Shown here piece after piece: positions 1,518 to 41,977 of a stretch of DNA of 64,000 bases. Source of the stretch: Apostichopus japonicus (taxonomy: Eukaryota; Echinodermata; Holothuroidea; Aspidochirotida; Stichopodidae). The notes under the pieces are model-generated. The model did not search any database. It saw only the letters and a program-made list of their open reading frames with translations, and had not been told where the DNA came from. The stretch is from the NCBI RefSeq assembly GCF_037975245.1, contig NC_092571.1, positions 26,240,564 through 26,304,563 on the forward strand, given 5' to 3'. Position 1 is the first letter of the stretch. Every line of letters begins with the position of its first letter. Both the position numbers and the translations under genes were made by a program.

Positions 1518-4500
1518 TTATCCAGGCAAGGTTGCAGTGTTCTCCAAACCGCATCTGTCCGATTCTGTGAAGAGGAGAGAGAAAGATGAGAATATTATAG
1601 CAACCACTGTGATAAAAAAAGAAAGAAGTTAAGTGACATATCTGCTTATGAACAAATGGTCACATGCTTATGACTGATAATTGGCCTGATATAAAACAGT
1701 ACTAAAATATTCATGAATCTGTGTTCTGATCAGATCTACAGACTCAGAAAGATATACTTCTCTTTCTGAAAAATAAATCACAATATTTAAAGTTTCACTA
1801 GCTAATTTCATACAAAATCATTGTTTTGGCTTGAACGAGACTGTCCATAGTGCACAAACTACTGAAACATGAACGTCGTCATCATTTGCATTCTATTTAA
1901 ATATATATGAAATATTTGGAATGGAAATATTTGGAATGGACATTTTATAAATGGTCTCAAAATATGACAAAGGAAATGTTCCGAGGTTAACATTAGCGTA
2001 TTTTCCTGCCCTATGCTAATGGTGTACATGTCCAACCTGACCATATATGCCTAAGCATTCGGGTTCAAGCATAATAGATACACAGTCTTAACAATATTCC
2101 GCTCTGTCTGGCCTGGCTAACTTGATCGGCCCTGTATCTTCGTGATTTCACATCGGTTTGGCCTTTCATGTACATTACACTACAAAGCATCCTTAGTAGA
2201 GGCCAGTTAGTTGCACAATTAGGCTTCAATAATTTATTCGCACTTCAGTGATTCCATACAATGCATCAAAGCAAATGTAGCTGGAGATTTGATCTTGTGG
2301 TCAGCAGGGAAAAATCATTTAATTAACTCTCATGGTCAGCTGCCAGAGTGGGAGATAGGAGGGGCATTGATGTCATCTAGCTTGGCTAACTTCTGCCCAG
2401 GATTTCCTAGGGGCCAAAAAAGTTGCTAAAATATCCTTTGTAACAAAAAAATTGAATGAAGCAAATCCATCCATCCATCCATTAGTGTATTGCAATGTAT
2501 GGAGACACAACATGAAGGGAACAACTCCTACATCAAATCTTTTTATCACAATGTTAAGGATAACACTGGAAACATAAGTCTAAATGTGACATCATATACT
2601 CAGTCACTTTTACTTACTTATTTGATGGGGAAGAATTGGAGTTTTGAATATGACCTTCGCATTACAGACACACCTAACTTTCATCTTGAAACATTTCTTT
2701 GAAGAGATGAGGTGTTAATAAGTTACAAAGTTACAGAATGAATTCTGATCTGTTATGTGGTTAAAGATAAAAAAAAGGGAGACTTGAATATTTTTTTCTT
2801 TGGTTTACAGTAAACTACATGTAGGATCTGATGTGTATGTGTTTTGGAAAAATGCAGGGTAGGGTGGGGTGGTAGGAAATTATGAGTGGTAGGGTGGGAG
2901 TGAGAGGAGGGGGGAGTTTTGAAAATGGTTGGAAAGAGTTGGGAGATGGATGAATGCTGACTTAAATTATACCCAAACTTCCATTTTGGCCCAAAATAAG
3001 ATTTACAGAAAAAGAACAAGAGGGCAATGTCCATACGAAAAATATAAAAAGTGTCACCACAGGGGAAGGTGGTTGGTGAGGGATGACTTCACAGTCTTAC
3101 TGGGACAAAAGAAAGGGTACAAATAACACAAGGACATCAAGAAATTTATGCATAACATGATTATGATGAAACTTTAATTGCAACAGTCAAATATGTGTAT
3201 GACCATTACTGTATGTATTTATACATCGTTGTACATCATAGTAGTAATAGCTCCTGTAAACTATTGATATACGAGTCAACAATATAATTACTTCCTACTG
3301 CTCATTAACTCAGTACTAGCTGCCGGGAGAAACATTAGACCAGTGACTTTGCACTTTTATGAAGTGAAAAATGCAAGTCATCATACTTCCTGTTCTCTTT
3401 GTTCACAACCCAACCACAGCTGGAACGACGGAACAGATGCAATGTTTACACAATGGGTTGGGCAAGGTCAGTCACTGATGACTAAACTTGGCACAAACTT
3501 GGCATAAACAGCAATTATTCCCACCAAGACATAAAGTTAAACATTTACGTATAAATTAGTTCATACCAAGAATAAAATGAAATTACTAATCAATGAGAGA
3601 AATAATGTATTTGAAAGGTCTCACTTTAAAATGTTAGAGATGGCTAGAGGTTGAGTCATTGCATTGCTTCATTTCCTAAAGTACTAGGAGGGTACTCCCA
3701 TTTATATGCTCCTGCCTGTTGTCTTTGTTACTCTGCCAAGGCCTACCTTTCTCTTCTCAATCGGCTTAAAAGAGTACGGGTACTATATTTTGCCTACTCT
3801 GCTCCTTGTCTGTGGAACCAGCTACCGGATCATTAATCTTTCTAACTTTAAAGGCATTGAAGACTCGCCCCAAACCACGTGCCGCCCTGTTTTTCAGGTT
3901 TTTCTCTTGTCACTACAAAATGCAGACAGTAACGTGATACCTTGTTATCTTTAGCTGGACCTGAGATATCCATCGCTGTATCGTTTATACACGGTGCTGT
4001 GGGTATTGACTGCAGCTGTATGTACTGACTGTACACTAGTGTCTAATTACCGACAGTAACAAGCTGTGTGTGTATTTTCTGAGATCGATGGTGGTGTCTA
4101 ACACTTCTGTTACACCTCATTCGAAACTAGGCCAGATTACCGGCATTAGACGTTCTTTTTGAGCGAGTCTTCAAACCCTGTAAAAGTTATACCTCTAGAC
4201 TCATCTCATTACTTGTTCAATTTGATTGCGATGAAACTCTTTTCTTAAGTGCCTACAGCAGCTACTTCTAGTCTCTGATTGTTGGTTTATTAATTCACTG
4301 TATTATTATATTAGCAAAGGTCACTTTATAACAAGGTGCAAATGAGACTTCCTCAAAGTGTTAACTGTCAATTTATTCAATTATAGGCATATCAATTTTA
4401 CTTTTCATTTCTTTCTTCAACCATTTCAAATATTGAAGTTCAACTTAGCACAGTATAAAGCTGCATTGGTTGGACAACCTTTTGTCCAGTGTCACCAAAA

Positions 4501-7500
4501 ATCTATATCAGAAGGCTTCAAAAGAAATCAACAAAAGAGACCCCTCTCAGATTTTTCTGATAATTCAAACATTAAACTGGTAATTATTAAAGTTATTTTG
4601 CTTTCATGACTTTTAGGATTTGGATGGAGCCCGAGGTGCATTTTTACACTAGATTTAATTGCCATTACAAAGAGCCATTTAAACAAACCTCTACATTTTG
4701 ATGTTGCTACAAACGTGGAAACCAAATGAGTAGAAAAGTATGAACCTTGTTTTGTGATAACGAGACTTTTAAACTTACCATCATCACTTCCATTCTTTCT
4801 CATCTTAACTGGATTCATTTCTATATCTGTGAAAAAAAGTAGGAAATTGAAGAATTCAAGGAAGCAAAGCTACGATCAATTCAGGATCCAAAGTAAAAAT
4901 TGGTAGAATCAAAGTCATAGAGCTGCAATATGTGTCGAGCTGTAACTTAATTCCAACATTTGCATTAACCATGTTTACACACAACTGGATCAGGAATTTT
5001 TTACATATATTGCAATCTAGTGCACTTCCAAAGTGACCTATTACTGCAAAATTAAGACAGCTGTCATAGAAAGTGTACATTTACTGAGAAATTTAACAAA
5101 ATTAGATTCAAAAGTGTTCTTTTGTTGATAAACATTTACATAGTGGAATTTGAGGTGATTTTGTGGTTTGCTTCGTTAAATCCAAGTCGCATCTCACACT
5201 GCTATTACAATTTTGCTGCCTCCCTTCCCCCATCCCCATATTGAGCCCTATTCCACCACATTATTGCAAAATATGTAAGTACTTCAATTCTTTACTACAA
5301 ATATAACATTTTAGGGATTCAAAACACTCTACATAAACAGACTGTGTAAAAAATACTGCAAAATCCATGCTCAAATCAACATCAATCACTACTTTAGATG
5401 CTTATTTCCTCTTTATATATATATATTTTTTTAAAGGTTTTTCATATTTTAAGCTGGAAAACCTGTGATAACTTTCTGTAACATAGAACTGTATGTACTT
5501 TTATACTGCATGTATTGCAGGAATGAAAATTTGATATAAATATTAAACTTGTCTCCTATCAAGATACAATAGCGGATAACTCCTTTCATATCTTACCAGA
5601 TTCCATCTGGGCCACTGTATACCATCCCACTGAAAGAAAAAGGAGCATGAGAATTGCTGAGCTGGAACTTTAAAAATCTTTCTAGAACACATATTTTCAT
5701 CCATGAGAGGAGACAATTGTTTCAATGAAACAGCTAACCATAGGATATACATATTTTCCTCTGAAAACTGCCACACTAGACTTATGCCTGCAATCATTGC
5801 TAGTGACGTGTAATTTCGTTTGTAATCATTCAAGACTAGATCTGTTGAAATATATTTGCACAACTAGCACATGTACAGATGGAGATGTACAGATGATCTC
5901 CAAAGATCTAAACAGAATAGATCGACAAAAGAAAAGTGCCCCAAAAAACTTGCAGATCGATCCACACTTAAAATGGTCATCAACTAGCTGTCATATGACA
6001 GACTTATTAGACTAATTGCAACAACATATCTAATACACCAAGGAGAAACTTCTTTTAACATGAAGATATCATTTTCAAAGCTTCAGAGCTTTCTGATTAC
6101 AGCTGTAATTTATATGCCTCAATACCTTGAGTGACTCATTTCACAAACGACAATACTAACTTCAATGAACATATGTGCCCTATTCTTTACCTAACCAAAC
6201 TTATCAGATAAACAGTCAAACAATGCAAAAAGCATTTGTGACTTATAATATGAAAGGAACAAGGGCGTAGGAACCGGGGGGGCTGGGGGGCGCCAGCCCC
6301 CCAGTGAAAAATGTGGCGGGGCGGAAGAATCATTCCGCCCCCCGCTTCGCAAGTCAGAAAACCCCTTTTTCATTTCCAAATGAGAAAAAAAATCTCATTT
6401 GGAGCACCAAATTGCATCTAAGGCCTGGTGAAAATACAAAATTAAGTTTACAAAATGGAGTGGGTGTTGAAGTGTGCTATATTGCACCAAATTGCATCTG
6501 AGGCTACCTGGAAATGCAAAAAATTCCAAAGGGGAGGGGAACACCCCTCCCCTTAGACCCCTCCCCCAGGCCGGCCATCAGTCTTCAGCCCCCCCACTCA
6601 AAAGTACCTTCCTACGCCACTGGAAAGGAATAAGGTTTTTGACTGGCTAAATTTAGACCTTTTGGTTTGATCCCTTCCCCATACTTTCCCTGCTCCTCAG
6701 TAAAGTATGGCAGGAATTCTGCAGAAGAACTTCTCCATATCTAACAATTCTCATGCTCTGAAGAACACGGAAGAGGCATCGACCACTAGTAATGTGCTCT
6801 TCAGCAGATCACAAGACGCATACTGCATGTGAAGGAGGGAGCAAAATAACCTTTATTACTGTCTTTTCATGACAAGCCTTATTATCCCAAAAGAACACAT
6901 TATTTGAAGAAACATAAACATTTGTGACTCACATTTAGTTTTCCCACAAAGAAAGCCACAAAACCAACCGATCAGCGGCAGCAAGGCGGCAAGCAGTATC
7001 ACTATCAGGGAATACAGCCAAGGGATTGAAAATTTATCCGGCAGTGACTCTGCAACATCAAATGACAAATTAAATGACCTTCAATTTAGCTGGTAATTTG
7101 ACAAATTTAAACTTAGTGCAAGAAAATAGGGCAAAAAAAGAAATTGAAGAAAACCAAATACTTACATTGCATTTATATTTTCAATGATCAGCAACTAAAT
7201 ACCAAGAAACACAAAATAGAAACTGACAAGTTGTGACATGTCTTGCATGTGGGATGAATCCCAGGGTGACCTATTGAAACATGTTAACCAAACATAACTC
7301 AGAATGCTGACACACCATTTCCTTCACTTTTTTTCACTTCTCTTTTGTCCTTGTATCAGTCATCAAAAATAGTACAATGCATAGTTGGAACAGTTTGGTG
7401 TGGATTAACAAAAGGGTCTGGCAGTGGAGGGGAGGAGGGGTGGGAGGAGAGGGGAGGTACATGGAAGAGGATGGGAGAAGGGGTGGGAGGAGAGGGAAGG

Positions 7501-10500
7501 TACATGGAAGAGGATGGGAGAAGGGGTTGGAGGAGAGGGGAGGTACATGGAAGAGGATGGTAGAAGGGGTGGGAGGAGAGGGGAGGTACATGGAAGAGGA
7601 TGGGAGAAGGGGTGGGAGGAAAGGGGAGGTACATGGAAGAGGATGGGAGAAGGGGTGGGAGGGGAGGTACATGAAGAGGATGGGAGAAGGGGTGGAAGGA
7701 AAGGGGAGGTACTTGGAAGAGGATGGGAGAAGGGGTGGGAGGTGAGGTACATGAAAGAGGATGGGAGAAGGGGTGGAAGGAAATGGGAGGTACATGGAAG
7801 AGGATGGGAGAAGGGGTGGGAGGAGGGGGAGCTACATGGAAGAGGATGGGAGAAGGGGTGGGAGGAGGGGGAGCTACATGGAAGAGGATGGGAGAAGAGG
7901 TGGGAGGAGGGGGAGGTACATGGAAGAGGACATGACATGTCACTGATACCTGCAATACCATAAACTTTCCAGAAACATTGATAACTTTCTAATCTTTCAT
8001 GAAATATGCCAACTGCTTTGCAACTGCAATTTTCTTGAATTACACTTACTGCATGTTGTAGGTACTAGTCTTCTTTAGATGATAAAGGTAACAACAAATT
8101 ATTCAATTGATTTTTATTGCATGATATTAAATCTGTTTCAGTTGATGATAATATCTCTCTTTATTTTCTGAACATAACTTTACTTCAGCTTTAAATGGAA
8201 TACCTTCTTCACAACGAACACCTTTCCAGCCAACAGGGCAATGGCAAAAAGTTTCCCAGCTATGAACTATGGCTACACAGGTGCCACCATTCAGGCAAGG
8301 AGAATGCTCTCCACATGTCATCACATCTGGATAAGAGACAAAAAAAGTAAAACAACGTCTGATTAATAAGACATGATAGGTGTAATTGACTTGAGCACCA
8401 CCTCCAGCACACCTGTCCAATATGCATTGTGATGTGTTGCAGTATAAATTGTTTAGGATACCTACTACACAAACTTAATCTGTTACGCTTCACCAAAACT
8501 ATAATAAGCAATTAGCCTACAGAGGGCTAGAACACCGTACTTTCAATAGTGTCAAATCTACCTAAAGCCTAGGCTTGTTCTTCCCTGTTATTGTAATATT
8601 TATTATCAAGCATCGCATTAATGGATAATTAATCAATCACTGATTGTACCATTTTAGTACAATAGAAAATGATAGACTTCAAATTCAAACAGTTCTCATA
8701 GTAGTTTGTGCAAAACAATTACCCACTAGCTTTTTTTTTTTTTTTTGTTGCAAGTGTGAAAGAAAGAGTGGATGGGACCAAAGAGTGCATGTCAGATCAG
8801 ACAAGCAACTTTGACAATTAAAGAACTTGTCGATAAACTTCAAATACAGCAGATTGTGAAAGAAAAAGTTAATTTCTCTCCCGGCATCCCTTTCCTTGCC
8901 AAAACCACAAATGTAATTAATAAGAACACAGTTAGTTCAGGTTACAATGGTACCAATGTATTAAGACAGTGTAATTTGTTAATTATGGTTGTCAACAAGA
9001 TGAAATCATTCATTTGGTAACCTTTTGTTGTTTGATGTTCATAATTTGGTGGTGACACAGAACAATAATCAAAATGCCAGTTAAAATGTAGTTTCTTGTA
9101 TGGTTGGGGAATAGTCCATCGTTTATACCTTTATTGCATACAGTACGTTTACCCATAGGTTGGCCAAATGGGCCCATATGGTGACCCTTAGGTCAAGGGA
9201 ATTAACCTATCTACCTATTAGATGACTGAAAATGGCTTTGTTGAATGGCCCAACGAACTACATACCAACCACTGGAGGAAGTGATATAACGAGATTGGAT
9301 AGGCTGCTGCAGTAATGAACCATGTGTTAAGGTTTGTGGGAAGCTCCAATGCCTTATATCTGTCACAATGTTGATACTGTACTTATACCAGAACAACACA
9401 ATGCGTAGTGATTCCTTTCCAAGTTTATGAAGTGGATCCTTATACCAAGAGTGAAGTGTACCCAGTTTTTACTTTTGATAAATATTGTGAGTGCAACGGT
9501 TTCACTTAAGGTTATCCACAGAAAACAATAAGGTTCTAATTGGACTCCGTAATGTTGATCAACTCACTATGTATGAATTTCATCCAACCAACCCTTTGGA
9601 GTTATTGCTTTGCATGACAAGCTTTTCAGACTTTAATTGCCCTCTGGTAACCTTCAAACTTACTCTGACACCTGCACAAAACATTAGCGAACTTATTTTG
9701 TTGGATTCCTGTCATAAGGTGGTGAGATGCAATTATGCCAATGCTATACAATTAGAATATTGCTCCTGAAGAGAAGAACTTACTTTTGGTCACTTGGCCT
9801 GTATCGACAAGTTCTGGTTCAGTGACATTGTCTTGTGGGTCAGGAATGTCAGTCTGGGACTCTCCATCACTGTCAGTGACAAATTCTGTTTCTTCATTGT
9901 CGGGTGGATCCACAGGTTGGAGGCAAACACTGTCACTAAAGGCATCTCCTTCGCTTTTGTACTATTAAGTTAATACAAAAAATTAAATGTTGTGAGTTGA
10001 CCCCCTATAACCTGTCTATTTTACAATCTTTGCTAAGAAAATTACTATGAAAGAAATATTTCTACTATTTACTATAAATTAGAAATCATAGCAAATGAAA
10101 CACATGGACAGTCCTGAGAAACTATAGTATACATGATAACATGCATTGCTTGTGATAAAAAGGTGAAAAAATAGGTCATTATGCCACAATCTTACCCATG
10201 CAGAGTTGTAAAAAACAAGTCACTATAAAATTAATGTCAAGTCAAGTGGATGTCAAGTTGAGTGGATTCATTTACTCAAGTCAATATATTATCTCTTTGG
10301 GGAGTTATTTCATAAACTTCTTTGAGTCACTTTAGCGACTCCAGCCCTTCCCCTCTTCTTCACTTATCATGTCCTTCTCCATCATCTACTTCATCCTCAT
10401 CCTCATCCTTCATCCTCATCATCTTCTTCACTCATCATGATGTCCATCCACACTCAAATGGTATATAAATCTCCTAATCCTTCTAATCCTTCTAATCCCT

Positions 10501-13500
10501 CTTTCTTTCTCACTCCCCATTTAATCCTCCTTCAATTCATTCTTCCTTCTCATCAACTGCAACTCATTCATTTCCTCTTGCTTTCACATCAGTTCAAATT
10601 GAGCTAGGACAGGGTTCGAACCCGTTCTAGCCATAATATTCTTTGCTCTTTTACATTCTCTAGAATTTCCAAGTCAGTGCTCCTCCATACATTCATTTAC
10701 ATATTATTATGTATGAAAAGCCAAATTTCTCACGAAAATCCCTTCCCTGCTTGGGGAGTGTTTACTCCCAGGTTACACAATATGCAAGTTACTGTGGCTT
10801 CTGACTGGCGCCCTCAGCAAAAGACATGGCTATATAGGAATCACTACCAACTAAGGGGTGGAATAGCTTAGTGTGTAGAGCCATGGTCTTGTAATCTAGC
10901 AGTCTCTGGTTCAAATCCTGTTCTAGCACATTAATTATTTTGCTCCTTTCCATCAATGTCTAAACTTTCCCAGTCAGTTTTCCATTAGTCATTTACTTTC
11001 ATATAAGTTGTATTAATTTGGTACCTCCTGTAGCTATACTTACTCTCTTACACTTGGTATGAGGGATGCACGTATCGCAGATGTTCTCCTGAGATCGGTA
11101 AGTCCCAGGATCACAGAGGCAGCAGCTTTGTTTGTCAAAGAAAAGAATACAACATCCACTTTAATTTACATATATCAAGCAGATATGACCAAAATTATTA
11201 CACATTAAAAACTTTGTTGTCATAATTTCACTGCGAGCCCACATTCTGTTGTTTGAGCTGACCAGTGGTGTTAATGTGCTCTTGACATGGAATTGATGGT
11301 TGTTCATAGGTTATAATCTCTGCATACAATGCTGGTGTGTGAATGAATGTAAACACACACCTATGTAAGCATGTGTAAAGTATAGTACCTCTCCCAGAGT
11401 GTTTTATCCGGGTGATATTCTACACTGTACATAAACTGTAAGACCTCCAACTTTATGGAGATTCTAAACTAGGCAATCTCCCCCCGATTTTTGCCATGAC
11501 TGGTTTTATTCAATGAGCGTGGGCCCTTTTGTACTTCCACTTTTCCAGAACAAGACATACTTTCCTCCATAACTTATCAATACTGCTAAAATCAATCGCT
11601 TTAGGCAACATTTCACATTTTCATCTGAAAATTCTTACTATGAATCTTTCCAATTCATCGACTGTTTAAACTGCAAGATAATCATTAAAGTAAAATCTAA
11701 TATAATTTCAGTGCAATGTTCAAAATGTAAGTGCAATGTTCAAATAAATACAACCTTTTTGATAAATGAAATGTTCAAAAATATCCAATCTATCAATTTT
11801 ACAGTTGCTATTATTACTATGCTGGGAGAGAACTCCACTAGAAAACAAATCAGAAGTGTGAACAGATACAAGGAGATTCTGAAATATCTGAATATACTGT
11901 AAGTGACCACGGTCATTGAGGGGAAAACCTTACCTGTCTGGGCCCAGGCATGGTTTATCGTTTGATCCCTTGCGCTTGCCCGCAGGGCAATAGGAAGGTT
12001 CATTCCCAATTGAATCAGAAAAATTAGGGTCCAATGGGTTCACATGACAGTCAGGTGGCTAGAGATTGCGAAAGAAAATTGAACAGATGAAAAAATGCAA
12101 TGTGGTTAACTTCCATGCAAGATTTACACAAAAGAGACATCTATACATTGCAATGAAACAAAAACAAAAATTACGACAACACGTACTTGTAATCACAGTT
12201 CACATACAAAATAGAAAAACACAGGAATAACAGACCCTGGAAAAACCTGTCACTCTGGAACCAACTTCACATACAAAGTTGAATATTGTATTTCAACATG
12301 TTTCATGGGAATTTAGGAAATGTGTGGACACTATTAAGTTTTTGACACATGTGGATACAAATGGTGGAAAATCACTCATAACAGTGTTTGCAGGCATCAC
12401 ATGATTTGTCAAAATGACAAAAAAGTAAAGTTTAAACCTAATAAACAGATGTAAAACATTAAGAGATTGTTGGGCATAGAGCAGTTTTCTGTGACTGTGA
12501 AACCTTCCTTTTCCTCCTGATTTTACTTATTAGTCTATGTTATTATTCCTCATTGGCTGGGAACTTTAAGTAGAATCAGAGGCACCCTACAAAAGTACTT
12601 TTGATAACTTCTAACAGGGCGCTAATGTTTGAGGTCTTTACCCGGTCATGTCTGGCTGATTAATCCTTGGAGGTACAATAAGATGACAGAGATCAGCATT
12701 ATCATCTTAGCCCCTCCTTGGCTGGTAGAATATTATTAACTTGTACAACCAAAAATATGATATAATATATACACAATACCTCCTCAAGATTAGTCACATC
12801 ATTAGGTACTATTGGTCCCTGTGTTGTATTAGTTGTGGCTGTGGTAATTACTTCTGGTACAGGTAGTTTCGACAAACTTGAACCATGAGCAGTGCCAGCA
12901 TAGCTGCTAAGAGCAATCACCTGTACAAAATGAACAACATGTGACATTGATTCATATATGTACTGTACGATAGTACACAATAGTAATTATTGATATATTG
13001 GAATGTTAAGTATGTTGCATAATATGAGAGTTCCTTAAGCTACACATATATATACTGTATATAAACAATGAGTTGGAAAATCTAGAACAGTGAAAAAGCT
13101 CCAGTCTCCACCGGGATTCGAACCGGGGCCTCCCACTTTATATATGCAGACACCCTAACCAATTAGCCTTAATGGACACTGTTGTCTGCCCAAGGGTTTG
13201 AAACCAGTAAGGAAGGTTTTCAATCCACACATAGGCATACAGCAGTACAACACTGTGTTAAGGTTGGCCAACAGTTGTGCACAATTGTTTATATTTCCCA
13301 TTAAAAACTGAAAGGACAATACCAAGAAACCCAAAGCAATGTAATGCGGCATCAGTAATTTTCCTAGATGCATGATTGCGGTTTTCAAGGCACAGTTGAA
13401 GCTGTGCATGTTAAAAGTGACTGTGTAACTTGCACTGTAAAATATCTCCGCCAGCCTATATATCCTCCCTAAATTTCATGGAAGGGAGTTTCCAAAAATA

Positions 13501-16154: not shown

Positions 16155-16218
16155 GCACTTGGCAAGTCGGCTTTCCCATAGACTTGTTATTGGTTGCACG
16201 GCCGATTTGACAAATCTG

Positions 16219-16400
16219 AACAATAATAATAATAATAATAATAACTAAGATTTATAATGCGCTAATTATAAACAAAATAGTTGTCAAAAGCGCCATACAT
16301 ATAAAAATGAGTAGAAAAAAAAGCAAAAACAATAATGCAACAATGAAATATAGTTACAAATCAAATTGAAAAATGTTTAGCATAGAGGTAGGTTTATAGT
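16219..16400. repeat. AAT microsatellite with SINE-tail-like GCGC motifs
   Basis: An (AAT)n tract at 16224-16246 is followed by TTTATAATGCGCTAATTATAAA and later CAAAAGCGCC. This is the same arrangement of paired GCGC motifs seen in the type 1 SINE tail near 600-660. It abuts the proposed acceptor side of gene A exon 1, so the 5' border of that exon is uncertain. Confidence 0.4.
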
Positions 16401-26519: not shown

Positions 26520-27432
26520 TTTAAAGCATTGAAGACTCGCCCAAAACCACGTGCGGCCATCTGAAAAAGTTAACTTTCTGTTGCTTGCAAGTGACGTTTT
26601 GTTCGTGTCACTACAAAATGCAGACAGTAATGAAACGTACGTGATACTTTAATTGTTATCTTTAACTGGACATGAGATGTCCATCGCTTTATCGATCGTT
26701 TGCATACTGTGCTGTGGGTATTGACCGCAGCTGTATGTACTGACTGTACACTAGTGTCTAATTACCGACGGTAGCAATACAAGCTGTGTGTGTATTTTCT
26801 GGGATCGATGGTGCATGGTGTTTACAGGGGCGTAGCCAGCGGGGGGGGGAGTGTGTGGGGGGGTGTCACACCCCCCAATGATTTGGTTGCTGTCGGCAAA
26901 TTTTGGGTCTGTCGGCAAAAGGAGAAAGGTGAAGAGAGCGGAAGGGGAAGAAAGAAGGAAAGCTGAATTGAGAAAAGGAGAACGGGAGCTTCTTCCGTGC
27001 CAAAATTTGACTTAAAATATGTACCAGATTGCATCTAAGGACGTTTCAAACCTAAAAATTTTCCAAATTTTCCAAAACTTTTCCAAAGGGGAGGGGTAGA
27101 CCCCCTACCCTTAGACCCCTCCCCCATTTCAGTCACCACTTCCAGATCCGTCGGCAAATCAAATTTGACTTAAAATATGCACCAGATTGCATCTAAGGAC
27201 GTTTTAAAACTAAAAAAATTTCCAAAAGGGGAGGGGGACACCCACTCCCCTTAGAGCCCTCCCCCATTTCAGTCACCACTTCCAGATCAGTCGGCAAATC
27301 AAATTCTCCACACCCCCAAACAAAAACCCCTTCGCTACGCCCTGAGTGTTTAACACTTCTGTTACACCTCATTCGAAACTAGGTCAGATTTCTGGCATTA
27401 GACTTTCTTTGTGCGCGAATCTTCACACCCAA
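26520..27432 (+). mobile_element. TTAA-bounded MITE, copy 6, split by a hAT element
   Basis: The 5' end is at 26520 (TTTAAAGCATTGAAGACTCGCC) and the 3' end at about 27432 (CGCGAATCTTCACACCC). It is interrupted at 26825-27344. Confidence 0.8.
26825..27344. mobile_element. Non-autonomous hAT-type element H3
   Basis: The ends are CAGGGGCGTAGCCAGCGGGG and the inverted CCCCTTCGCTACGCCCTG. The flanking 8-mers GGTGTTTA and AGTGTTTA match at 7 of 8 positions. The interior carries an internal duplication: near-identical segments around 27010-27150 and 27165-27300. Confidence 0.8.
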
Positions 27433-30400: not shown

Positions 30401-30980
30401 TTAACTTTGTGGGAATTTTTTTTTTTTACACTTTTACTAATTTTCTTAACATTATTTTGGGTTGTATAAATACACCCAATCTACATGGACATGTTTGATC
30501 TCTTTTCTATTTAGCAAACATTAGTTCTAAAATCTAAAGACTGGGCAAATGGCAATGTTTACCATAATTGGGGCCATGGGCCAGACATATAGCTTTTGGT
30601 ACTATTTTCCCCTCTACATTTGTCAGTGGCCATGGTTCCCAGCCCATCAGCCCCGAGGTATTTTTTTTACTTTGTGAATTGAAGCAACATAAATAAACAG
30701 TTTGCAGAAAAACATAAACCTTTCATTTGTGAAAAAAAGCAGAATAATTTTCTAATTTTACTCACAGACAGACAGATACCCCAGTAATATAAAAAACGGG
30801 TATTAAATAATCACACATACCCTGCAGCAAAACACCTAGATATCATTTGATAATTGGATATAAAGTTATGTTGTTCATCGCAAGTGTAAAAGTTTGGATC
30901 ACGGTAAGGGAATGGATATTGTAGAGTGATAATAACAAATAAATACGTTCAACAAACGTCCAATCCAGCAAACATCATGG
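27433..30980. other. Intergenic DNA downstream of gene B
   Basis: No exon with convincing splice sites was found. A weak tRNA-like segment on the minus strand at about 27545-27640 may be a decayed SINE. The rest is unassigned AT-rich sequence with a G-rich patch near 29925-29950. Confidence 0.35.
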
Positions 30981-31001
30981 TACCGGGTCCGTCTTGGCCA
31001 A

Positions 31002-34000
31002 TTATTCGCACAGTTGCTCACTGGATCTCGGCATTGCAAAAGAAACTAGTTCAGGGTCATCAACATTCGCTGTGGCCTTCTCTCCATATTCTCCACCTGT
31101 AAGTCAGTTTAAAAGTTGATATTTTAAATACTGAAATTAAAGTTCTTTCATATATTGTCATTATGGTTAGCTTGTCACAGATTCTTTTTTTCAACTTCAT
31201 TTTTTTTCTTTTTAAATCTGAGAAAGTCAAAAAGTTAAAGCTCATCGCAATAGCCCCAATTATAATATGCTAAAACGTTGCCAAAAATGAAGAAAAAAAC
31301 AAGAAGGTGTTCCTGGACATTCTGGCCATATAAAGTTTTCTCAGACAACATCAGACAATAGACATGCCTCTTTGATTGAAAACGCTTTGATGGTGGCTGT
31401 TCAATATCTGCCGAGATAACATGAAGTACTACGACCATATTTGGAGACAGTAGTGAAATCTTTGAGCTATTTAGAGCACATTTTAATCCCACTCCAAGTA
31501 TGAAGAGATATTTCAGTTGTAGACAGTGAGACATTAATATGGAAGATACAAATATTCTGCACAGTCCATCTTACCACCTTGTTTCTATTAAAGTCTATAC
31601 ATATAGCCGTTTGAACAAAAGAGAAACCAACATTGAAAATCAAATCATGACAAGAGGAACAGGCAAAGTTAGTAAATGTATTTCAAATCTTGAATCTGCT
31701 TTAACTTTAATCAAGAAATCAATTCAAGACATTGCCACATGTTATTTATGTTTTTGCATGAAACCTATCTTTATCTGACACTATCAATTCCTTGCAATGA
31801 GAATGCCTTTGAAAATTTTGCACAAAGAGTCAAATCAAGTGACCACATCCAGTAAATAAATAATACTGCCTTCCTTCGTGGTAAGATTTCTGACTATGTT
31901 ACGTGACTAGGAAATTACACTGTTCATAACAGCCAATCAAAAACAAAAGTGTAAGCATCTCACTTACAGAACATTCTCAGCAGAGCCTGCTGTGGCCTGG
32001 TACAACAGAAAACCCTCCAGCAACAAAATGATACTGGAATAAAAAGAGCAATGGCACATGCAGGAATGGCAAGGAAGATGACAAGTAGCAAACCTATAGT
32101 AAAAAAAAAGGATTCACATAATTATTCATAGTTTCATATCCAATTGTTTGTCATGTTTCCTGCAAATGTTGCACAATTTTGACTACATACAGAAACGAGA
32201 ATGGGTTAACTGCAAACCATTAGATGTTTGCATAAACTGTTAACTAACCTAATTTATATCCACTAATCAGTAGACCAATTAGCAACAAAGGACACTATGA
32301 TATTGTACTAAAATCACAGCACATTACCATGCGAAGAAATGGTTAAATCAATATATGATTTTAAGCACTTGAAATATAAAAATAATTCAAAAAGTAGATT
32401 ATTGATCTTAGCTTAATTTCCAAGGTTTATTCTGAATCTGAAGATTTAGTTCTTAGAACGGTATTAGCACCAATTGTTATAGACATGCCTGCTATTCTTT
32501 CCATAGTATTAATGAGTAATTCCCTTTGATCCCAGCCCCCCCCCCCTCACCATCAATTCAATTCACACATAATTCACTGTATAGTTTTCTGAATTCCAAG
32601 GGAAGAGTGTGCTGGACAAGCTGTTTAATTTACATTGTAATCTAAAGTCCTATCTGTAGTATTTAGCAATAATAATTCTTATTTAGGAGAGTAAGAAATC
32701 ATTTATGCTCACCTGGTCTCTTAGCCAGTAAGGAAAACAAAGTCATGACATCTTCAGTTGTTGGAATCTTATTGTCAGGTTCACCTGAAGAGCAAAGAGA
32801 AGAACAGACAAAAGGTTGCAATATATTGTTTCTTATAACACCTTAGGAGTGCATACATGTATGCATGCACACCTGTGCATAGGTTGTATGAAAAATAAAA
32901 CAAATAAAACTGCAAAGAACTCGACTTCTTATTTTTAAAAGCAGTTGGCCACTTCCTAATGCAATAAATCCCTTTCCTATAATATAGCTGATAATCAGTT
33001 ACTAGCTTTCATTTAACTTCAAGCAAAACAAAATTCCAATACAGTTGAGTAACACAAAGTGGACTGCCACATCTAATGCATTCAGGATTAATATAAAGGT
33101 ATGATATGAAAATTGGATGTATAATTATATCTCCTACTATCTATAAACAGGACCCATATATTATTATGTTTGTGTCTTTTTAGTTATGATCAAGAATGCT
33201 TGGTGAAAGTAATGGTCATTTTAACACATCAACCAGATTAAAGTCTTAATGTCCAACATAAGAAAGATGAGAATGGGGTCTGCTTAGCTTAGTGATGAAT
33301 GTTGCTGGCATGTTTGATTCCACAGCACTGGCAATGAAACATCGAAATAGTACAACTAACATTTCAAGCATTGCGGTGACGGCATACAAGGAAACTGCAT
33401 GCATGTCTCACCTGTCATTTGGCCTGTTAGTATGGTGGCAGTAGTGGGACCTTCAATCTTTGAACTGTTTGTTTGGGGCAAAGTGTCATCTCCATCTGGA
33501 AGATGAAATGAGAACAACACCCTACAGGTCACTCATGTTCAGATATAAACAAGGCTGTATAGCCCAAATATTAGCACAAATCAAACCCATCTCCACATGA
33601 CAGTATCATTCAAGGTAACCCTTCTTGACAAATGTTTAAACTTCCAGGGTATCAAAGAACATTGACCTATTTTGTTAATTAATTAATGAATTCAGGAGTG
33701 GAGATGAAACAGATTATTGACTCAGAGTGTACAATTGTTCGACATTTATTGCAATGTTAAATGTGATTGACATTTCATCACATAACATGAACTATTATTA
33801 AATATAAATCTCCTGGTCAGTTAAATATAAATGGGATGACTCAACCAAATTTAAATAAATGATACCTGTTCCTAAAATCTTTCCTTTTTTTTTGAAACGC
33901 ATCTTCCGTTTTTGTGTATTTAATGTAGAGTAAAATTATGGCCCTGTGTAAAAATGAATAATAACTACCGGGCTAGCTCTTGATGTCCAGAAAAGTAGAA

Positions 34001-37000
34001 GATAGATAATTTGATCTAGGCAATGGACATTGGGGAGGGGAGAGGGATTGGGGAGAGGGGCTTAATTTGAACCCATAGGCCATCATTTACTCTCAAGCAC
34101 CTTCAAAAGTTTGTAAATGCCTTCTTCTAAGCTGTACTCACCAATCGGAATGTATTCAGCAGTCTTTTTCCTACATCTTGAGTTGTTTGTATAGGATCCG
34201 TAGTCCTCGAACTATAAAGGACAATTTTTAAAGGAAAATGTTGACAGAAATTTTTGTTCATGTCTATACAATTGTGCATGTTTGCAATGTTCAGAACTTG
34301 CAACAATTGATGGTGATATAAACGATAGGTAAATGGAGAGAAGGGTCTCTGAAAACAAATCTAACTTTACACCACCACACTCACAACAGGCATTTACTGT
34401 ATAGAAAAGTACCTTTGCACTAGAAGTTTTATACATATAAATTTTCATGTCATATGATGTGCAAACTTGTTCTTCTTTATGAAAGAACTGAGGTGATGTT
34501 CGATTCACTACAGATTAAAGCAAATATTTGTTTTTCCTTTGTATTACCAACTAGTGCATTTTTCACACATGTATGAATGTGTGTTTGACTTTTACTTTGT
34601 AAACATGGGCAGCACTGAGCATATTCACAAAAATGCGTCAATATAAAATCAATTTCCTTAAAAAAAGTTCCTCTGGACATCGTATAGTTTCTGTTAGTTA
34701 ACGGTGAATAATTTACCTGGCATCGCATCGCAAAATGGGCAAATTGCTATACAAGATCAAAGATGCATAGCAGTTTTGTACACAGAACCATAGTACATAT
34801 TTTATAAGAGGCAAAGTTAATAGGGCTCCCTAGTTCAAAATTGCTGTGCAAGATATTTACACAATTTCTCTGGCTAACGTATATATCTTTGCTTAAAAGT
34901 TTTGTAATCTTTAACTAAGTGTTAAAGCTATTGAAAGTACTCAGCTATTATCAAATCAGTGGAACAATGCATCAACTTTCATACCAAGTATTACACACTA
35001 TATATGTATACATATATGAAGACAATGTTGTAATTAATGACATTATTAAAGACAAATTCAACTTGAGAGAGCAGATAATTAATGACATACATGAGCACTC
35101 TGTAAAGTGGAAATGTACTCATTGTAAACCCCTCACTATTTTGATTATTAGCTTATGATTCTATTCGATGAACTCAACATTTTGTTGCACAGACTTTTCC
35201 TTTGGGTATTGTAACTACATGTCAGGGAATAATTAATTGTTCAAATTTTGTGTAGCAATTTTTAAGTTTTTGAATTTGTCTTTTTATTAAGTACTATGGT
35301 TCTTCTGTTCAATTATACTGAGCTACTGCTTACATAGATCGTTGCTTTTGTACAGCATTTTGCATACAGTTTATAGCATTGTGTCATGTGCTAATGGATA
35401 AAGCACTCACTGTGTGTGAGTACAAAATAGACCAAAAGAAAATATAATTTTTGTCTGTTGGAAATACACTTCAATTGCCAAGTTAATGCACTTGACATCC
35501 ACATCAGACAATTGTATATTATTTTGCTTTAACAAAGAGATAGGTGAGCTATAGTCTACAAACAATACAAACTTACCACTAAATCATAATCAGGACAGAA
35601 TGTCTTCTGTATACAGTACAAGCATTGGTTACGATAAGGTTGATAGGTTCCATGTTCACATATACAACATCTGTTGATGAAGGAAAGTGTAAATGTAATT
35701 GTTTTGAATATCACTGGCTAACTTAACTTATGCACTATAGAACAATATGTTGCCACATGTTGCTGCTCAAGGCATGCATCTTCTAGACTGCTTAATATGT
35801 TAACTGAGTGAAATTTAGGAACAAAATAAGGTACAAAGTTTGATAAGATATCTACAGACAAACAACACTGCTTTCAGTCTGGGATTTACTTGCATACCGC
35901 TTTAACTTTGAGAAATGTCACTTTAAACATATGAAGTTCATCAAGTATAGTGGGTGTACTACTTGTAAGGTGTGAGAAGGATTCAGAAGTTAGAAATAAG
36001 AAAAATATGTACTTTATTTAAATGACAGAATCTTGCAGAGCAGGATCTTACAGTGACCTCGGGCAGTATTAGCAGATGCTCAATATTGCCATGTTGAAAC
36101 TGAACAACCTCAAAATAAGTATGTCCCATTAAAGACACTTTCTGTCAACTACTTGATGAACATGTTAGTTTGTTAGAAGGGCTGAAATACTCTTGAAATT
36201 CTTTCTGAATTTTTACAAATCAAACTCTTGTTGAAGAGTATAAGAGGTACAGTGGAACTATGAATTCTCCCTCCCCTCCCTGCCCCTCCCACTCCCTTAT
36301 TTCCTTCAAGCAGAAAATGTGTGGGTAAATTATATGGAATGCCTTCAAATAAGGGCTGGATAATATAGATGAAATTGAATAGCATCATGTACTTCTGAGG
36401 TCACTCATTCAATTTGCTATTGACTCTTTTTCCCCCTAATTGACATAGCTTGTCAGCAGTGCTTCAAGTTAATGTAGATTTTAGACAGAATTAGAAAGAA
36501 TGTGTAAAAGTAAGTTGGCCTGACGTTTCGATCCTAGCAGGATCTTCTTCAGAGGCTGAATGACAAGTGAATTTGAAAGAATTAGAAGAGTTTTAGATTT
36601 CTGGATTCTTCTACTCACCCGTAACGACCATGACAATTCTCTCCTTCTCTTTGTTTTCTGTACCCAGCCCGACAATTTCGACCACTGTAGGGTTCCTGAA
36701 AACAGCCTTCATTCTGAAATTCAAAATTGATTAATTCCTTTACAGTTGCTACAGCACTTCAATATATATCTGTAATGTCAAAAGACATTGAACAATTTAA
36801 CAACCCTTTGCATAAAATCAAGTAAATTAAATCTAAGTTACAGTGGTCCAGGATATTTAATCAGCTGGTTCAATTTCTAATGTATGGTTTATATCATGTT
36901 ACAATAGATGGTTGGAACTGATAACAGAAAAAAGGGAAGGGTGGGGGGGTGCTAAATTATTTTGTGATTTAATAATACAAAGCCAATTATTATGATCACT

Positions 37001-40000
37001 TGCATCCATTACATGTACCATATACTGTACCGCTTAAAGAGCTTTGTTGATACAATATCACTCTTTGACTTTTCTAAACCTTTAACAACAACAAACAAGG
37101 AGGGAAGAAAAAAATTAGTTTCCTGGTCTTGGCATTTATTTCATTTATTACTCATACCTGTTCTTCATCTAATACAGCCTTTTGTAGAGATTCTTGTAGT
37201 GTGTTTGAAATCTGTGGTAATTCTGTGACAGCTGCTATGACAGGAGCGAAAGAGAGGCTCAAACTCTGCACAAGTAAGAAAGAAGAAACAAGGTTAACCT
37301 AATGTGTTTAGAGGTAACATGGTAGAAGTTGTAAGGGAAAGTGGTTCATGGATTAAGGGGGGGGGAGGGGGGGGTTGGGCTGGATATAATGCATGTGAGA
37401 AATTCCATAATTTGTCAAAAGTGGTTCGGGATATGATATGGTGCTCTATAAATTTGCATATTGCAATGCTTCCATTTCACTTGAGCAGACAAATATACAC
37501 ACCACTTTCTTATCAAGTTAGAAGGAGATCTAGAGCTCTAAGTAAAACAAAGGGAGAACAATTGATCAACGTCACCAGCAAGAAGGGAGAAGGAGATCTA
37601 GGAGTAAGAAGTACAAAGGAAGAACACTTGATCATGTCACCAGGGAGAATAGAGGAGATTTAGAGCTAAGGAATACAAAGGGAGAACAATTGATCATCTT
37701 ACCAGGGAGGAGATCTAGAGCTAAGAAGAACAAAGGGAGAACAATTGATCATATCACCAGGGAGAAAAGAGGATATAGAGGTAAGGAGTACAAAGGGAGA
37801 ACAATTGATCATGTCACCACCTAAAAGAGGAGATATATAGAGGTAAGGAATACAAAGGGAGAACAATTGATCATCTCACCAGGGAGGAGATCTAAAGCTA
37901 AGAAGAAATATGGGAGAACAATTGACCATCTCACCAGGGAGAAGAAAGGAGATCTATAGCTAAGAAGAAAAAATGGGGAACAACTGAGCACGTCACCAGG
38001 GGAAAGAAAGGAGATATAGAGGTAACAAGTACAAAGGGAAAACAATTGATCATGTCACCAGGGAGAAAAGAGGAGATGTAGAGGTAAGGAGTACAAAGGG
38101 AGAACATCTCACCAGGGAGGAGATCTATAGCTAAGAAGAAAAAACGGGGAACAACTGAGCACGTCACCAAGGGAAAGAAAGGAGATATAGAGGTAACAAG
38201 TACAAAGGGAGAACAATTGATCATGTCACCAGGGAGAAAAGAGGATAGAGGTAAGGAGTTCAAAGGGAGAACAATTGATCACATCACCAGGGAGAAAAGA
38301 GGATATATAGAGGTAAGGAGTACAAAGGGAGAACAATTAATCATCTCACCAGGGAGGAAATCTTAAGCTAAGAAGAACAAAGGGAAAACAATTGATCATA
38401 TCACCAGGGAGAAAAGAGGATATATAGAGGTAAGGAGTACAAAGGGAGAACAATTGATCATGTCACCACCTAAAAGAGGAGATATATAGAGGTAAGGAAT
38501 ACAAAGGGAGAACAATTGATCATCTCACCAGGGAGGAGATCTAAAGCTAAGAAGAAATATGGGAGAACAATTGACCATCTCACCAGGGAGAAGAAAGGAG
38601 ATCTATAGCTAAGAAGAAAAAATGGGGAACAACTGAGCACGTCACCAGGGGAAAGAAAGGAGATATAGAGGTAACAAGTACAAAGGGAAAACAATTGATC
38701 ATGTCACCAGGGAAAAAAGAGGAGATATAGAGGTAAGGAGTACAAAGGGAGAACATCTCACCAGGGAGGAGATCTATAGCTAAGAAGAAAAAACGGGGAA
38801 CAACTGAGCACGTCACCAGGGGAAAGAAAGGAGATATAGAGGTAACAAGTACAAAGGGAGAACAATTGATCATGTCACCAGGGAGAAAAGAGGATATATA
38901 GAGGTAAGGAGTTCAAAGGGAGAACAATTGATCACATCACCAGGGAGAAAAGAGGATAGAGGTAAGGAGTACAAAGGGAGAACAATTAATCATCTCACCA
39001 GGGAGGAGATCTTAAGCTAAGAAGAACAAAGGGAAAACAATTGATCACATCACCAGGGAGAAAAGAGGATATAGAGGTAAGGTGTTCAAAGGGAGAACAA
39101 TTGATCACGTCACCACGGAGAAAAGAGGAGATATAGAGGTAAGGAATACAAAGGGAGAACAATTGAACATGTCACCAGGTAGGAGGTCTAAAGCTAAGAA
39201 GAACAATGGGAGAACAATTGATCATGTCACCAGTGGGAGGGAGATGGAGATCTATGGCTAAGGAGTACAAAGGGAAAACAATTGATCATATCACCAGGGA
39301 GAAAAGAGGAGATCTAGAGGTAAGGAGTACAAAGGGAAAACAATTGATCATGTCACCAGCCATGCGGCTCAGGTAATAATTTAGCACTTACATTAGTTTT
39401 TATCACTAAAGTTATACGATGACTACAGGTACAATTGTTGCCTTGACATGTTGCAGGCTATGTTTAAAATATGCAAAAATCTCAATAAAGATCAACACAA
39501 AAGTGATGTGCAATGTGCAATGTTATCTATGTTAATCAATTGCAAATAGCTTATGGTACTAACTCCAAAAGATGTTCTTTTACCTTCATATCATCATATT
39601 AACATCCACGGATGGCATTCAACATAATTTGTCCTTGACAAACTTGCTATGCTTCAATGCAAATATATGTTAATTTAGGCCTCAAAAGTAATTAGGTTCT
39701 CCTTCAGTGCCGCGTCTGAGGAGATGACCTAATGACCTGTGTGTTAGACCAGGGAGCTTTTATCTTGATAACAGCTCTCTGGACTAACTTGTCCAGCCAT
39801 GTAGTGGAAAAAATTCAGATGCTTAAGGGGTCATTTCTGAACAATTAAAGTGGCATAGAAGTTCATCCTAGACTGACAGTAGTGTTTTCTCATAGTCTAC
39901 ATGTTATCAACATTTATTTTACACCTAAAGTCAAGGTACAGTATCATTTACTTACCCCGACAAGTAACAGGGTCTTCACAAATGGCTGAACTGCTATCTT

Positions 40001-41977
40001 CACCAAGTCTGTTCCAATTTTACGATATGTCATATTGAAAGTGGTGTTTGTGCTGAAATTTAATAGTAGAACAGGAATACAGGTTGATGGTCTTTCTCCA
40101 GTACAACACTAATTGTATATATGCATAAAATATTGATAAATTCTAACAACTGATATGAGAGTTAACCTGTGGATCTTGCTATTTTTTGTATCACAACTTC
40201 ATGTACCATATTTATTCAAATATTGTGATCTCAAGACAATTGACAATTTTGGATGCCCCAAATAAAAGTTTAAAATGTGTACCAGGCACACCATCAGCAG
40301 GAGTTGCTTATCAACATTCACATCTTATTTTTATGACGACTATCCACCATTTTGTGTAAATTGTCTCTTTGTCAATTTGGTTTGGTTTTTTTAGCACAAC
40401 GATTTCCATAATTAATGCTTCTAAATTTTCCACTAAATATTATCCAATATCGAAGTAAACTGTAAATAACGTAAATTACTACTTAAATCACATACAATAA
40501 CTGGCACATACATGGTAGACTTTTTAGCATACATGACATACAGCTCAATGGTCATACACACAAACATCGGTGTAACTGTTCCATTGCGAACATTACAGTG
40601 TCTGGTAGCAAAGCTAGATTTTAAGTGTCAATCTTTCCAACCAACCAACCAACAATCACACAACTAAACAAACCAATAACAAACTTGATGCTAGACTAGC
40701 AACTTCAGGTACCAACTGTGCATAATTTATCTCAGGTAAGAAGCTGTATGAGAGCTGCTGGAGCCAACTGAGCTAAAGTAGTTATCTCATACTTGTAACA
40801 TTAACTAATTTGTATTGTTCAATTAAAAGTTACATATACTTGATAAGTACATGTATGTATCCAGGAAATAATTTGTCCAACTGGTATCGCATCACAAAAT
40901 GATATGTAAAATTGTCAAATGGCTATACAAATGCAAAGATTTATAGCATTTTTTTGTACACAGAAACCACAGCATTTCATATCAAACAAAATTTCAGAGC
41001 CTTCAATTGAAGACTGTCTCTGACTTTAAGTATTTCCCACATTATCAAAATGCCTTTTTTTTGGTTTATTTTAGGGGTGGGGGGGGGTATAGGTCTTCTT
41101 TGTAAGGGGCTTTATTATTATGCCCATATACTTTATACTTGTTACCTTTATTCTTGGTGGGCTTCTTGTACAAGCTACGGCTTCCAAGCCCTTTCACCAT
41201 TTTCTCTCCGTAATTTCCATTATTTTTCTTTTATTTGAATTACTACTTATTATTTTCTTTGCATGGTATTGTCTTCACAGTCCTATTATTATATAAACAT
41301 TGTGAGAAAATGGAAAAATAAATGAAATGAAATGAAATGAACTTCAATTAATTGAAGCAGTTTTAAAACTGCTTCACAAAACTTGAAAACAATTTTAACT
41401 TATTCCCTGTTGTGCAATCAAACATGCATCTAGTCTTGTTTAATCTTCATTATATATAACAATCAAGCAAAACCACACATACCTAACAATGGCAGAGCTT
41501 TGACAACATAAGAGAAATGTCTAAATATTAGGTATTAGCAGATCTATGATACCATATATAATACAAGAAAAACATAGTCAATTAAGGTACCTATATATAG
41601 GCTATACTCAGGGTGTGATGGCACCCAGGGATTAGGAAGCACACATGAAATGTGCAGCTAGCAAGTCCCTCAAAATGCTTTTCACATGAGTGAAGTCAAT
41701 CAATGTAAATTTACACAGTTAGAATATACTAGCCACTATAGGACTAGACTAATGTATAGGTCCTGGCCATAGCCTGAAAATCTTGTAATGCTAGCAGTTA
41801 GTGTTACTTGAACAGTGAAACTGAACGGCACGGTTTTTCGCGGCTTGATTGAGCCGTATCGTAAGGTAAGCAACTGTGTGATATTAACCGAACCTCAGTG
41901 TCAGACTCAAATAGAATATAATATAATGGCAAAGGAAGAAAATTTTACCTCCTTCTTTTGACAGCTCTGGTTACCAT
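31002..41977 (-). CDS. Gene B: single-pass receptor-like protein with TNFR-like Cys-rich domain
   Basis: Coding exons in transcript order: 41977-41949, 40052-39956, 37265-37158, 36713-36619, 35670-35577, 34211-34142, 33495-33412, 32784-32713, 32093-31968, 31096-31002. All introns are GT-AG and the phases join without a stop, giving 870 nt (289 residues plus stop). Met1 is in exon 1. Met17 is an alternative with a better start context (A at -3), placing the hydrophobic segment about 33-58 as a signal sequence. Cys-rich block: Cys at 82, 92, 105, 111, 112, 114, 126, 129, 135 and 154. A hydrophilic Thr/Ser/Asp stalk follows, then a transmembrane helix (about 218-239). A juxtamembrane Cys cluster (C-C-W then C-C) is a possible palmitoylation site. 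The tail is 35-45 residues with no death domain. Potential N-glycosylation sites are N-T-T, N-M-T and N-N-S. Its function as a surface receptor is inferred. Confidence 0.75.
31968..32093 (-). CDS. Gene B exon 9: transmembrane helix
   Basis: A 126-nt exon, phase 1-1. It encodes about 22 hydrophobic residues followed by a Cys- and Arg-containing juxtamembrane segment. It occupies the same phase context as the gene A exon at 6933-7049. Confidence 0.85.
32713..33495 (-). CDS. Gene B exons 7-8: phase 1-1 stalk exons
   Basis: Exons 33495-33412 (84 nt) and 32784-32713 (72 nt) are both phase 1-1. They encode Thr-, Ser- and Asp-rich linkers without Cys. They occupy the place of the EGF exon of gene A. 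The splice sites are consensus (CAG acceptors, GTGAG donors). Confidence 0.7.
34142..36713 (-). CDS. Gene B exons 4-6: TNFR-like Cys-rich domain
   Basis: Exons 36713-36619 (phase 0-2), 35670-35577 (2-0) and 34211-34142 (0-1). Spacing is C-x12-C-x5-CC-x-C-x11-C-x2-C-x5-C, identical to gene A, with the same G-T-Y after CC-x-C. The last Cys lies 19 residues on, against 15 in gene A. The first Cys interval is shorter (9 residues between, against 19 in A). Confidence 0.8.
36515..36565. repeat. Retroelement-like palindromic motif
   Basis: GACGTTTCGATCCTAGCAGG followed by ATCTTCTTCAG, with an inverted core GATCCT/AGGATC. A diverged copy at 59122-59150 has the same frame: TTTCGG, palindrome, CTTCTTCGG. 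Similar modules occur at ends of invertebrate retroelements. The family is not assigned. Confidence 0.35.
37520..39360. repeat. 62-bp minisatellite with 649-bp higher-order units, gene B intron 2
   Basis: About 1.8 kb of tandem copies of a roughly 62-bp unit containing ACAATTGATCATGTCACCAG and AGAGGTAAGGAGTACAAAGG. A higher-order repeat with offset 649 bp is clear: 37801 matches 38450 and 38101 matches 38750 nearly base for base. It lies between gene B exons 2 and 3. Open frames here are repeat artefacts. Confidence 0.95.
41040..41341 (+). mobile_element. Possible 3' tail of a non-LTR retrotransposon
   Basis: It ends in AAAATAAATGAAATGAAATG with three perfect ATGAA-type repeats, a tail style typical of CR1/L2-like elements. 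No reverse transcriptase is present. It lies in gene B intron 1, antisense to the gene. Confidence 0.35.

Follow-up and report, generated by a model that had tools for sequence, protein, structure and literature searches.

Two adjacent genes for putative divergent TNF-receptor-like membrane proteins and their paralogues in the sea cucumber Apostichopus japonicus

A stretch of 64 kb from contig NC_092571.1 (C11 in the following) of the sea cucumber Apostichopus japonicus (C11:26240564-26304563, + strand, referred to as the window) is predicted to carry two neighbouring genes, A and B, which had been noticed in a preliminary description made without database searches. Our analysis suggests that A and B are genuine genes for divergent tumour necrosis factor (TNF) receptor-like type I membrane proteins, and that both are part of a cluster which comprises at least five paralogues (E on the plus strand; D, C, A and B on the minus strand), would extend over about 120 kb and would have been made by old local duplication. 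The members appear to follow a common exon plan, consisting of a start exon ending in phase 0, an exon for the end of the leader (phase 0), a Cys-rich exon (phase 2), an exon for the core of a cysteine-rich domain (CRD; phase 0), a CRD-end exon (phase 1) and then phase 1-1 exons for stalk, transmembrane (TM) segment and tail. For this explanation as a whole, we estimate a probability of about 0.78.

Both genes were rebuilt from the minus-strand reading, and the exon boundaries were checked by script. As the preliminary description had held, two minus-strand genes are obtained: all internal junctions are AG/GT, and the frame remains open to a stop codon through 10 coding exons in A (a3-a12, window 14567-1518, 314 amino acids (aa)) and 9 coding exons in B (b2-b10, window 40052-31002, 273 aa). 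The list of open reading frames (ORFs) is consistent with the further statement that no open frame exceeds a single exon, and the identical central Cys spacing reported for the two proteins, C-C-x-C-x11-C-x2-C-x5-C, is indeed present in both. Gene A is predicted to encode a leader, a Thr-rich stretch, a Cys-rich CRD-like region, an acidic stalk, an EGF domain, a TM segment and a tail of about 50 aa, and gene B a leader, a Cys-rich CRD-like region, a stalk, a TM segment and likewise a tail of about 50 aa, without an EGF domain. Hydropathy analysis yields a single TM segment in each protein, and the leader of B lies over the threshold used. In Pfam, only EGF is matched by A over the cut-off (PF00008, exon a8), together with a weaker hEGF match below the cut-off; B gave no domain match. 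Exon a8 is flanked by phase-1 introns on both sides and is therefore symmetrical (1-1), as exon shuffling predicts, and it is probably by this route that A gained its EGF domain. The a8-a9 intron of A also harbours a 43-base minisatellite of about 12 copies (window 7419-7930), and in the b2-b3 intron of B there is a long one whose nested periods measure 62, 109, 117, 179 and 470 bases (window 37544-39360).

The exon ends run through the phases 0, 0, 2, 0, 1, 1, 1, 1, 1 in A (a3-a11, preceded by 2 for a2) and 0, 0, 2, 0, 1, 1, 1, 1 in B (b2-b9, preceded by 2 for the exon at 41977). Where six shared phases (2, 0, 0, 2, 0, 1) had originally been claimed, five (0, 0, 2, 0, 1) match, and the first phase 2, contributed by a2 and by the exon 41977-41949, is without homology support. 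Because the likely start codons are found at the a2/a3 junction (split AT/G) and inside b2, in each case before the hydrophobic leader, five rather than six shared coding phases are supported, and the exons upstream of these starts are more likely untranslated or wrong. We have accordingly dropped the sixth shared phase. Immediately upstream of a2 lies a dispersed repeat: among 50 listed matches of this stretch, one is its match to itself, and the remaining 49 span no more than its first 43 bases.

Alignment of the Cys-rich cores of A and B yields a score of 105, compared with a mean of 31.5, a standard deviation of 6.2 and a maximum of 67 for 2000 shuffles. In-frame codon scores amount to 0.041 (A) and -0.066 (B) bits per codon, whereas null chains, which were assembled from random length-matched AG..GT pseudo-exons with an open frame and contain no counterparts of exons shorter than 60 bases, average about -0.35; for A and for B alike, none of 500 such chains reaches the observed value. 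The training set for this score was small, comprising five ORFs that are mostly EGF- or Cys-rich, and Cys codons were therefore left out.

Sequence around and including the window was drawn upon, 144 kb and finally 294 kb (C11:26100564-26394563), and whole-genome searches covered the assembly of 671,581,487 bases in 35 contigs; the DNA fetched, including two distant loci and control stretches, totals 261,000 bases. A tblastn search with B revealed a third CRD exon (E 0.03), which led to gene C, and a profile of the core exons of A, B and C then retrieved gene D (E 2.3e-4) and, weakly, gene E (E 0.14). All three lie 8-80 kb to the left of the window, in agreement with the earlier suggestion that a larger cluster continues beyond it, and exhibit the same series of exon ends, 0, 2, 0, 1, 1, as A and B. 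The proposed origin by local duplication is likewise supported. When each gene in turn was left out of the profile and searched for among all six-frame ORFs of at least 15 codons of the 294 kb plus their reversals, its core CRD exon ranked first in five out of five cases (A 5.8e-5, B 6.3e-5, C 2.6e-3, D 8.5e-9, E 2.1e-5; best decoys 0.11-0.56). Exon profiles built from all five genes detected the five core CRD exons in this region and no sixth one below E 0.2. Genome-wide protein searches with the sequences of A, B, C and D returned mostly the query's own exons or, for the whole of A, EGF exons. The core of A failed to recover B as a genome-wide protein query, and copies elsewhere may escape likewise. 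A match on contig C7 was rejected as a further family member, since it looks like a repeat-rich GCC2/GCC3 module.

At a distance of 15 Mb on the same chromosome (C11:11258000-11263999, 11.26 Mb), there is a degraded, intron-bearing copy of B, in which counterparts of b3, b4, b5 and b6 follow each other in order and are about 70-81% identical. Frame-breaking indels are present in the counterparts of b3, b5 and b6, and the acceptor of b3 is changed. Of five similar blocks, one, of 26 bases, lies within an intron, and the other four overlap exons. Those of b5 and b6 stop near the exon limits, and the b3 block extends 121 and 53 bases into the introns. The copy thus appears to back exons b3-b6 independently, but loosely. 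Its differences from B, arranged by codon position 1, 2 and 3 (20/101, 15/100 and 25/100), are too small in number to establish its age or to prove constraint.

In seven of the ten pairs formed by the five genes, the core score is higher than any obtained in 500 shuffles. The top scores are those of D-E (156), A-B (105) and B-C (99); A-D reaches 78. Local identity ranges from 30% (C-E) to 43% (A-B, 20/47) and comprises 32/86 positions for B-C and 28/71 for D-E, so that A and B are about as diverged from each other as these pairs are. By score, A and B are mutually each other's best match. A five-row tree with very long branches, in which no fork is well supported, groups B and C (69/77) as well as D and E (83/85). 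Judged by these comparisons, A and B are adjacent, old duplicates within the cluster that are paired by the score, whereas the weak tree pairs B with C.

The relationship to TNF receptors was assessed with single sequences and with profiles. In searches of PDB sequences, the core of A alone finds TNFRSF1B in four out of four matches (best E 0.024). The two-row profile of A and B yields eight matches at E<=10, all of which are members of TNFRSF, with LTBR as the best (5.3e-4), followed by OPG (0.015) and also including CD40 and DR6. With the profile of all five genes, 27 of 32 matches, including the best 26, belong to TNFRSF (best E 2.5e-7); the other five are two viral proteins, UL144 and CrmE, which we take to be TNFR homologues, and three ribosomal proteins. 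Gene D passes the Pfam model TNFR_c6 on its own (37.0 bits, E 4.7e-9, cut-off 29.4); C (26.0 bits) and E (13.8 bits) stay below the cut-off. In the PDB search, 28 of the 32 matches of D are TNFRSF proteins (best OPG, 3.5e-5), and the remaining four are EphA4 (three) and the bacterial SdrD. A TNFR_c6 scan of the whole genome produced 45 listed matches, eight of them over the cut-off and none in the cluster, presumably because introns cut the domain; like our genome-wide scans for the death family and PF00229, it was performed exon by exon, so that intron-split domains can escape. The description of A and B as TNFR-like surface proteins is consequently upheld in the sense of a distant homology, on account of the joint profile and of the neighbour D. 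The search against TNFR families that had been proposed for both proteins succeeded with this profile; singly, neither A nor B reaches a Pfam TNFR model.

Several results weigh against the proposed explanation. Neither A nor B, as whole proteins or as cores alone, matches TNFR_c6 up to E 10, and the core of B finds no TNFR chain among the PDB sequences, its one match being unrelated (E 0.75). C has 23 PDB matches, of which the top nine are TNFRSF10B and the remaining 14 antibody chains; E has 12, comprising nine TNFRSF proteins, one ELR1 and thyroglobulin as the best two. The scores of the pairs A-C and C-E fall under the shuffle maximum, and that of C-D equals it. Moreover, the exons of C, D and E were picked with prior knowledge of the phases sought. 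In the leave-one-out searches, the first Cys exon ranks first in one of five cases (B, E-value 0.039), and so does the CRD-end exon (D, E-value 0.096); these short exons fail in the other four cases each and therefore rest on position and phase. The tail exons a10-a12 are without homology support, and the leader of A, which was read from the sequence, stays under the hydropathy threshold. TNFR_c6 misses A and B, but their joint profile finds only TNFRSF chains in the PDB, and the view that they are distant homologues of the TNF-receptor superfamily, at the edge of detection, is supported.

Genuine genes might also possess a Cys-rich region that belongs to another small module, of the GCC2/GCC3, Ephrin_rec_like or NCD3G type, and merely resembles a TNFR CRD, given that the pattern C..G.Y....C..C is common to such modules. 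D also scores on Ephrin_rec_like (16.9 bits) and NCD3G (14.4 bits), in the A+B alignment a member other than the first (A) matches NCD3G at E 2, and the search with D surfaced the repeat-rich ORF on C7 that looks like GCC2/GCC3 by its pattern. On the other hand, Ephrin_rec_like, GCC2_GCC3 and NCD3G are below the cut-off or unlisted for A to E, whereas D passes TNFR_c6, and the PDB matches of the profiles point to TNFRSF (8/8 for A and B, the top 26 of 32 with the five-gene profile), which leaves little room for this alternative. A more radical objection is that the exons were selected from intron-rich noise and that no real genes exist, for they were chosen by eye in the preliminary description and in the follow-up alike, and some measure less than 50 bases. 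The score of the A and B cores, the matches of their joint profile, the leave-one-out ranks, the degraded copy and the codon scores all speak against it, and it is largely refuted by the homology to D, a gene that itself passes TNFR_c6; we regard it as scarcely credible. The existence of the degraded copy implies that members of the cluster do die, and together with a poly-A tract of 38 soon after the stop codon of A, its indels and its changed b3 acceptor lend some plausibility to the idea that the cluster is decaying and that A and B, once coding, have become pseudogenes that are silent or mis-spliced. Both genes, however, keep intact frames and junctions and coding-like codon use, and relics as diverged as these would be expected to carry stops, so that we consider decay improbable.

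Table 1. Predicted exons and genes of the cluster. Coordinates of genes A and B refer to the window, those of C, D and E to contig C11.
Feature	Coordinates	Strand	Basis
Gene A, whole coding span a3-a12	1518..14567	-	exons, junctions, frame; codon score above 500/500 null chains
Exon a2, probable 5' untranslated or doubtful; source of the first phase-2 end in A	16135..16215	-	dispersed repeat directly upstream
Exon a3, start codon AT/G split with upstream exon, first half of leader, ends in phase 0	14519..14567	-	rebuilt frame
Exon a4, leader end and Thr-rich stretch, phase 0	12780..12920	-	likely counterparts in B, D, E; candidate in C
Exon a5, first Cys-rich exon, phase 2	11934..12058	-	frame and exon profile
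Exon a6, core CRD exon CCLCDPGTY...C..C.....C, phase 0	11044..11125	-	ranks first in left-out profile search, E 5.8e-5
Exon a7, last CRD Cys and acidic/Pro stalk, phase 1	9784..9961	-	frame; A core vs PDB sequences
Exon a8, EGF domain, symmetrical phase 1-1 exon	8204..8326	-	Pfam PF00008 24.1 bits, cut-off 21.5 bits
Exon a9, TM segment	6933..7049	-	hydropathy 2.57 over 19 residues
Exons a10 (5629-5597) and a11 (4826-4779), cytoplasmic tail	4779..5629	-	frame only
Exon a12, last coding exon, carries stop	1518..1564	-	frame; genome search matches itself only
Gene B, whole coding span b2-b10	31002..40052	-	exons, junctions, frame; codon score above 500/500 null chains
First B exon of the preliminary description (identified by its end coordinate), unsupported as coding	41949..41977	-	no leader, no homology
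Exon b2, likely start codon within, first half of leader, phase 0	39956..40052	-	frame, hydropathy
Exon b3, leader end, phase 0	37158..37265	-	frame; degraded copy
Exon b4, first Cys-rich exon, phase 2	36619..36713	-	frame; exon profile; degraded copy
Exon b5, core CRD exon CCICEHGTY..., phase 0	35577..35670	-	ranks first in left-out profile search, E 6.3e-5; similar stretch in degraded copy
Exon b6, last CRD Cys, phase 1	34142..34211	-	frame; degraded copy
Exons b7 (33495-33412) and b8 (32784-32713), stalk, each phase 1-1	32713..33495	-	frame
Exon b9, TM segment and Cys-rich juxtamembrane stretch	31968..32093	-	hydropathy 2.87
Exon b10, tail and stop	31002..31096	-	frame
Gene C, candidate leader exon c3 to stop, 332 aa	26232589 to 26213478	-	tblastn, profile
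Gene D, partial, d3 to d7	26190128 to 26185515	-	profile; TM candidate uncertain
Gene E, partial, e3 to e7	26160421 to 26164035	+	profile; TM candidate

If A and B are divergent TNFR-like receptors, their short CRD ectodomain would serve at the cell surface to bind a TNF-family or another protein ligand. Of 204 candidate matches to the death family, 150 are listed, and none of these falls into C11:26.1-26.4 Mb, a result of an exon-by-exon search in a region where the tails of D and E are incomplete. As A and B have tails of only about 50 aa and no death-domain match is listed in the region, they were not interpreted as death receptors. TRAF2 and TRAF6 motifs, searched for in the tails of A and B by simple patterns, were not detected. 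Such short tails, devoid of these motifs, and the lack of a death domain make it more likely that A and B dampen or redirect signalling than that they trigger death, and we tentatively propose that they regulate or compete for ligand in the manner of decoys or co-receptors rather than kill directly. It is also possible, and we say this with equal reserve, that receptors without a death domain do signal, via an associated chain or a TRAF-like adaptor. The tail of C is longer (about 110 aa), is encoded by short, partly repeated exons and contains one TRAF6-type motif match, and several Cys residues flank the membrane segment of B; a single match in an acidic tail such as that of C is nevertheless what chance predicts, and the tails of A and B are without either motif. 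Two matches to the TNF ligand family (PF00229) over the cut-off were obtained in the genome, at C2:10751237 and C10:4899464, a lower bound. It is conceivable, though we think it rather unlikely, that TNFR-like receptors without death domains underwent an expansion specific to holothurians, with CRDs being recombined with other extracellular modules by phase 1-1 exon shuffling (CRD plus EGF in A), and that they recognise ligands other than, or beyond, these few TNF-family ligands; were this to hold, a separate recognition or regulatory system would have been made of TNFR parts.

Elsewhere in the genome, a death-domain match and three matches that exceed the TNFR_c6 cut-off lie within 4 kb (C23:16809178-16812731), probably representing a classical NGFR-like death receptor, and C12:19.4-34.2 Mb shows a striking expansion, with about half of all 150 death-domain matches listed. 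Within the window, three tandem copies of a unit are spaced at about 1.4-1.8 kb at positions 59672-64000, reaching the right edge, and the reported pieces are 60-86% alike. tRNA-like sequences at window 823-896 (-) and 10857-10928 (+) were classified as tRNA-Ala by ARAGORN (Rfam tRNA 29.2 bits, threshold 29) and are probably heads of short interspersed nuclear elements.

The cluster is invisible to TNFR_c6 when the genome is read exon by exon, and scanning intron-rich invertebrate genomes for domains may therefore undercount receptors. Open-licence papers provided no account of this cluster or of a membrane protein combining a TNFR CRD with EGF, and nothing useful on TNFR-EGF combinations or TNFRSF intron phases; the main text of the H. 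glaberrima genome paper contains no word starting with TNF. An NCBIfam search was uninformative.

A and B resemble members of TNFRSF in their predicted type I layout and, with the order C..C..GTY........C..C.....C....C, in the arrangement of a membrane-proximal CRD. A six-Cys TNFR CRD has three disulphides, C1-C2, C3-C5 and C4-C6, and well-known TNFRSF members possess two to four CRDs, whereas A and B have about one and a half as read here, remain under TNFR_c6 detection, are without a death domain that we could find and include one member with EGF. The nearest solved TNFRSF chains are TNFRSF3/LTBR, TNFRSF11B/OPG, TNFRSF1B and TNFRSF21. DcR1/DcR2, DcR3 and OPG are decoy-type members without a working death domain; A and B share with them a CRD ectodomain without death domain and differ from them by short, unrelated tails of their own and a very short CRD region. 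Comparable, too, are the death-domain-less TNFRs of another echinoderm, S. purpuratus, which likewise combine CRDs with the absence of a death domain; 13 TNFRs, three of them with death domains, are tabled for this species in one account (PMC4979521) and seven are quoted in another (PMC6394757). In the sections of PMC4979521 on which we draw, the role of invertebrate TNFRs without death domains and the ligands of invertebrate TNFRs are named as open questions, and a five-gene cluster with a common exon plan and a CRD+EGF member is not described. The cluster of at least five genes, including the CRD+EGF chimera, would offer a concrete set with which both questions can be addressed. TNFRs without death domains are already known in invertebrates, and A and B are best described as a divergent variant of them.

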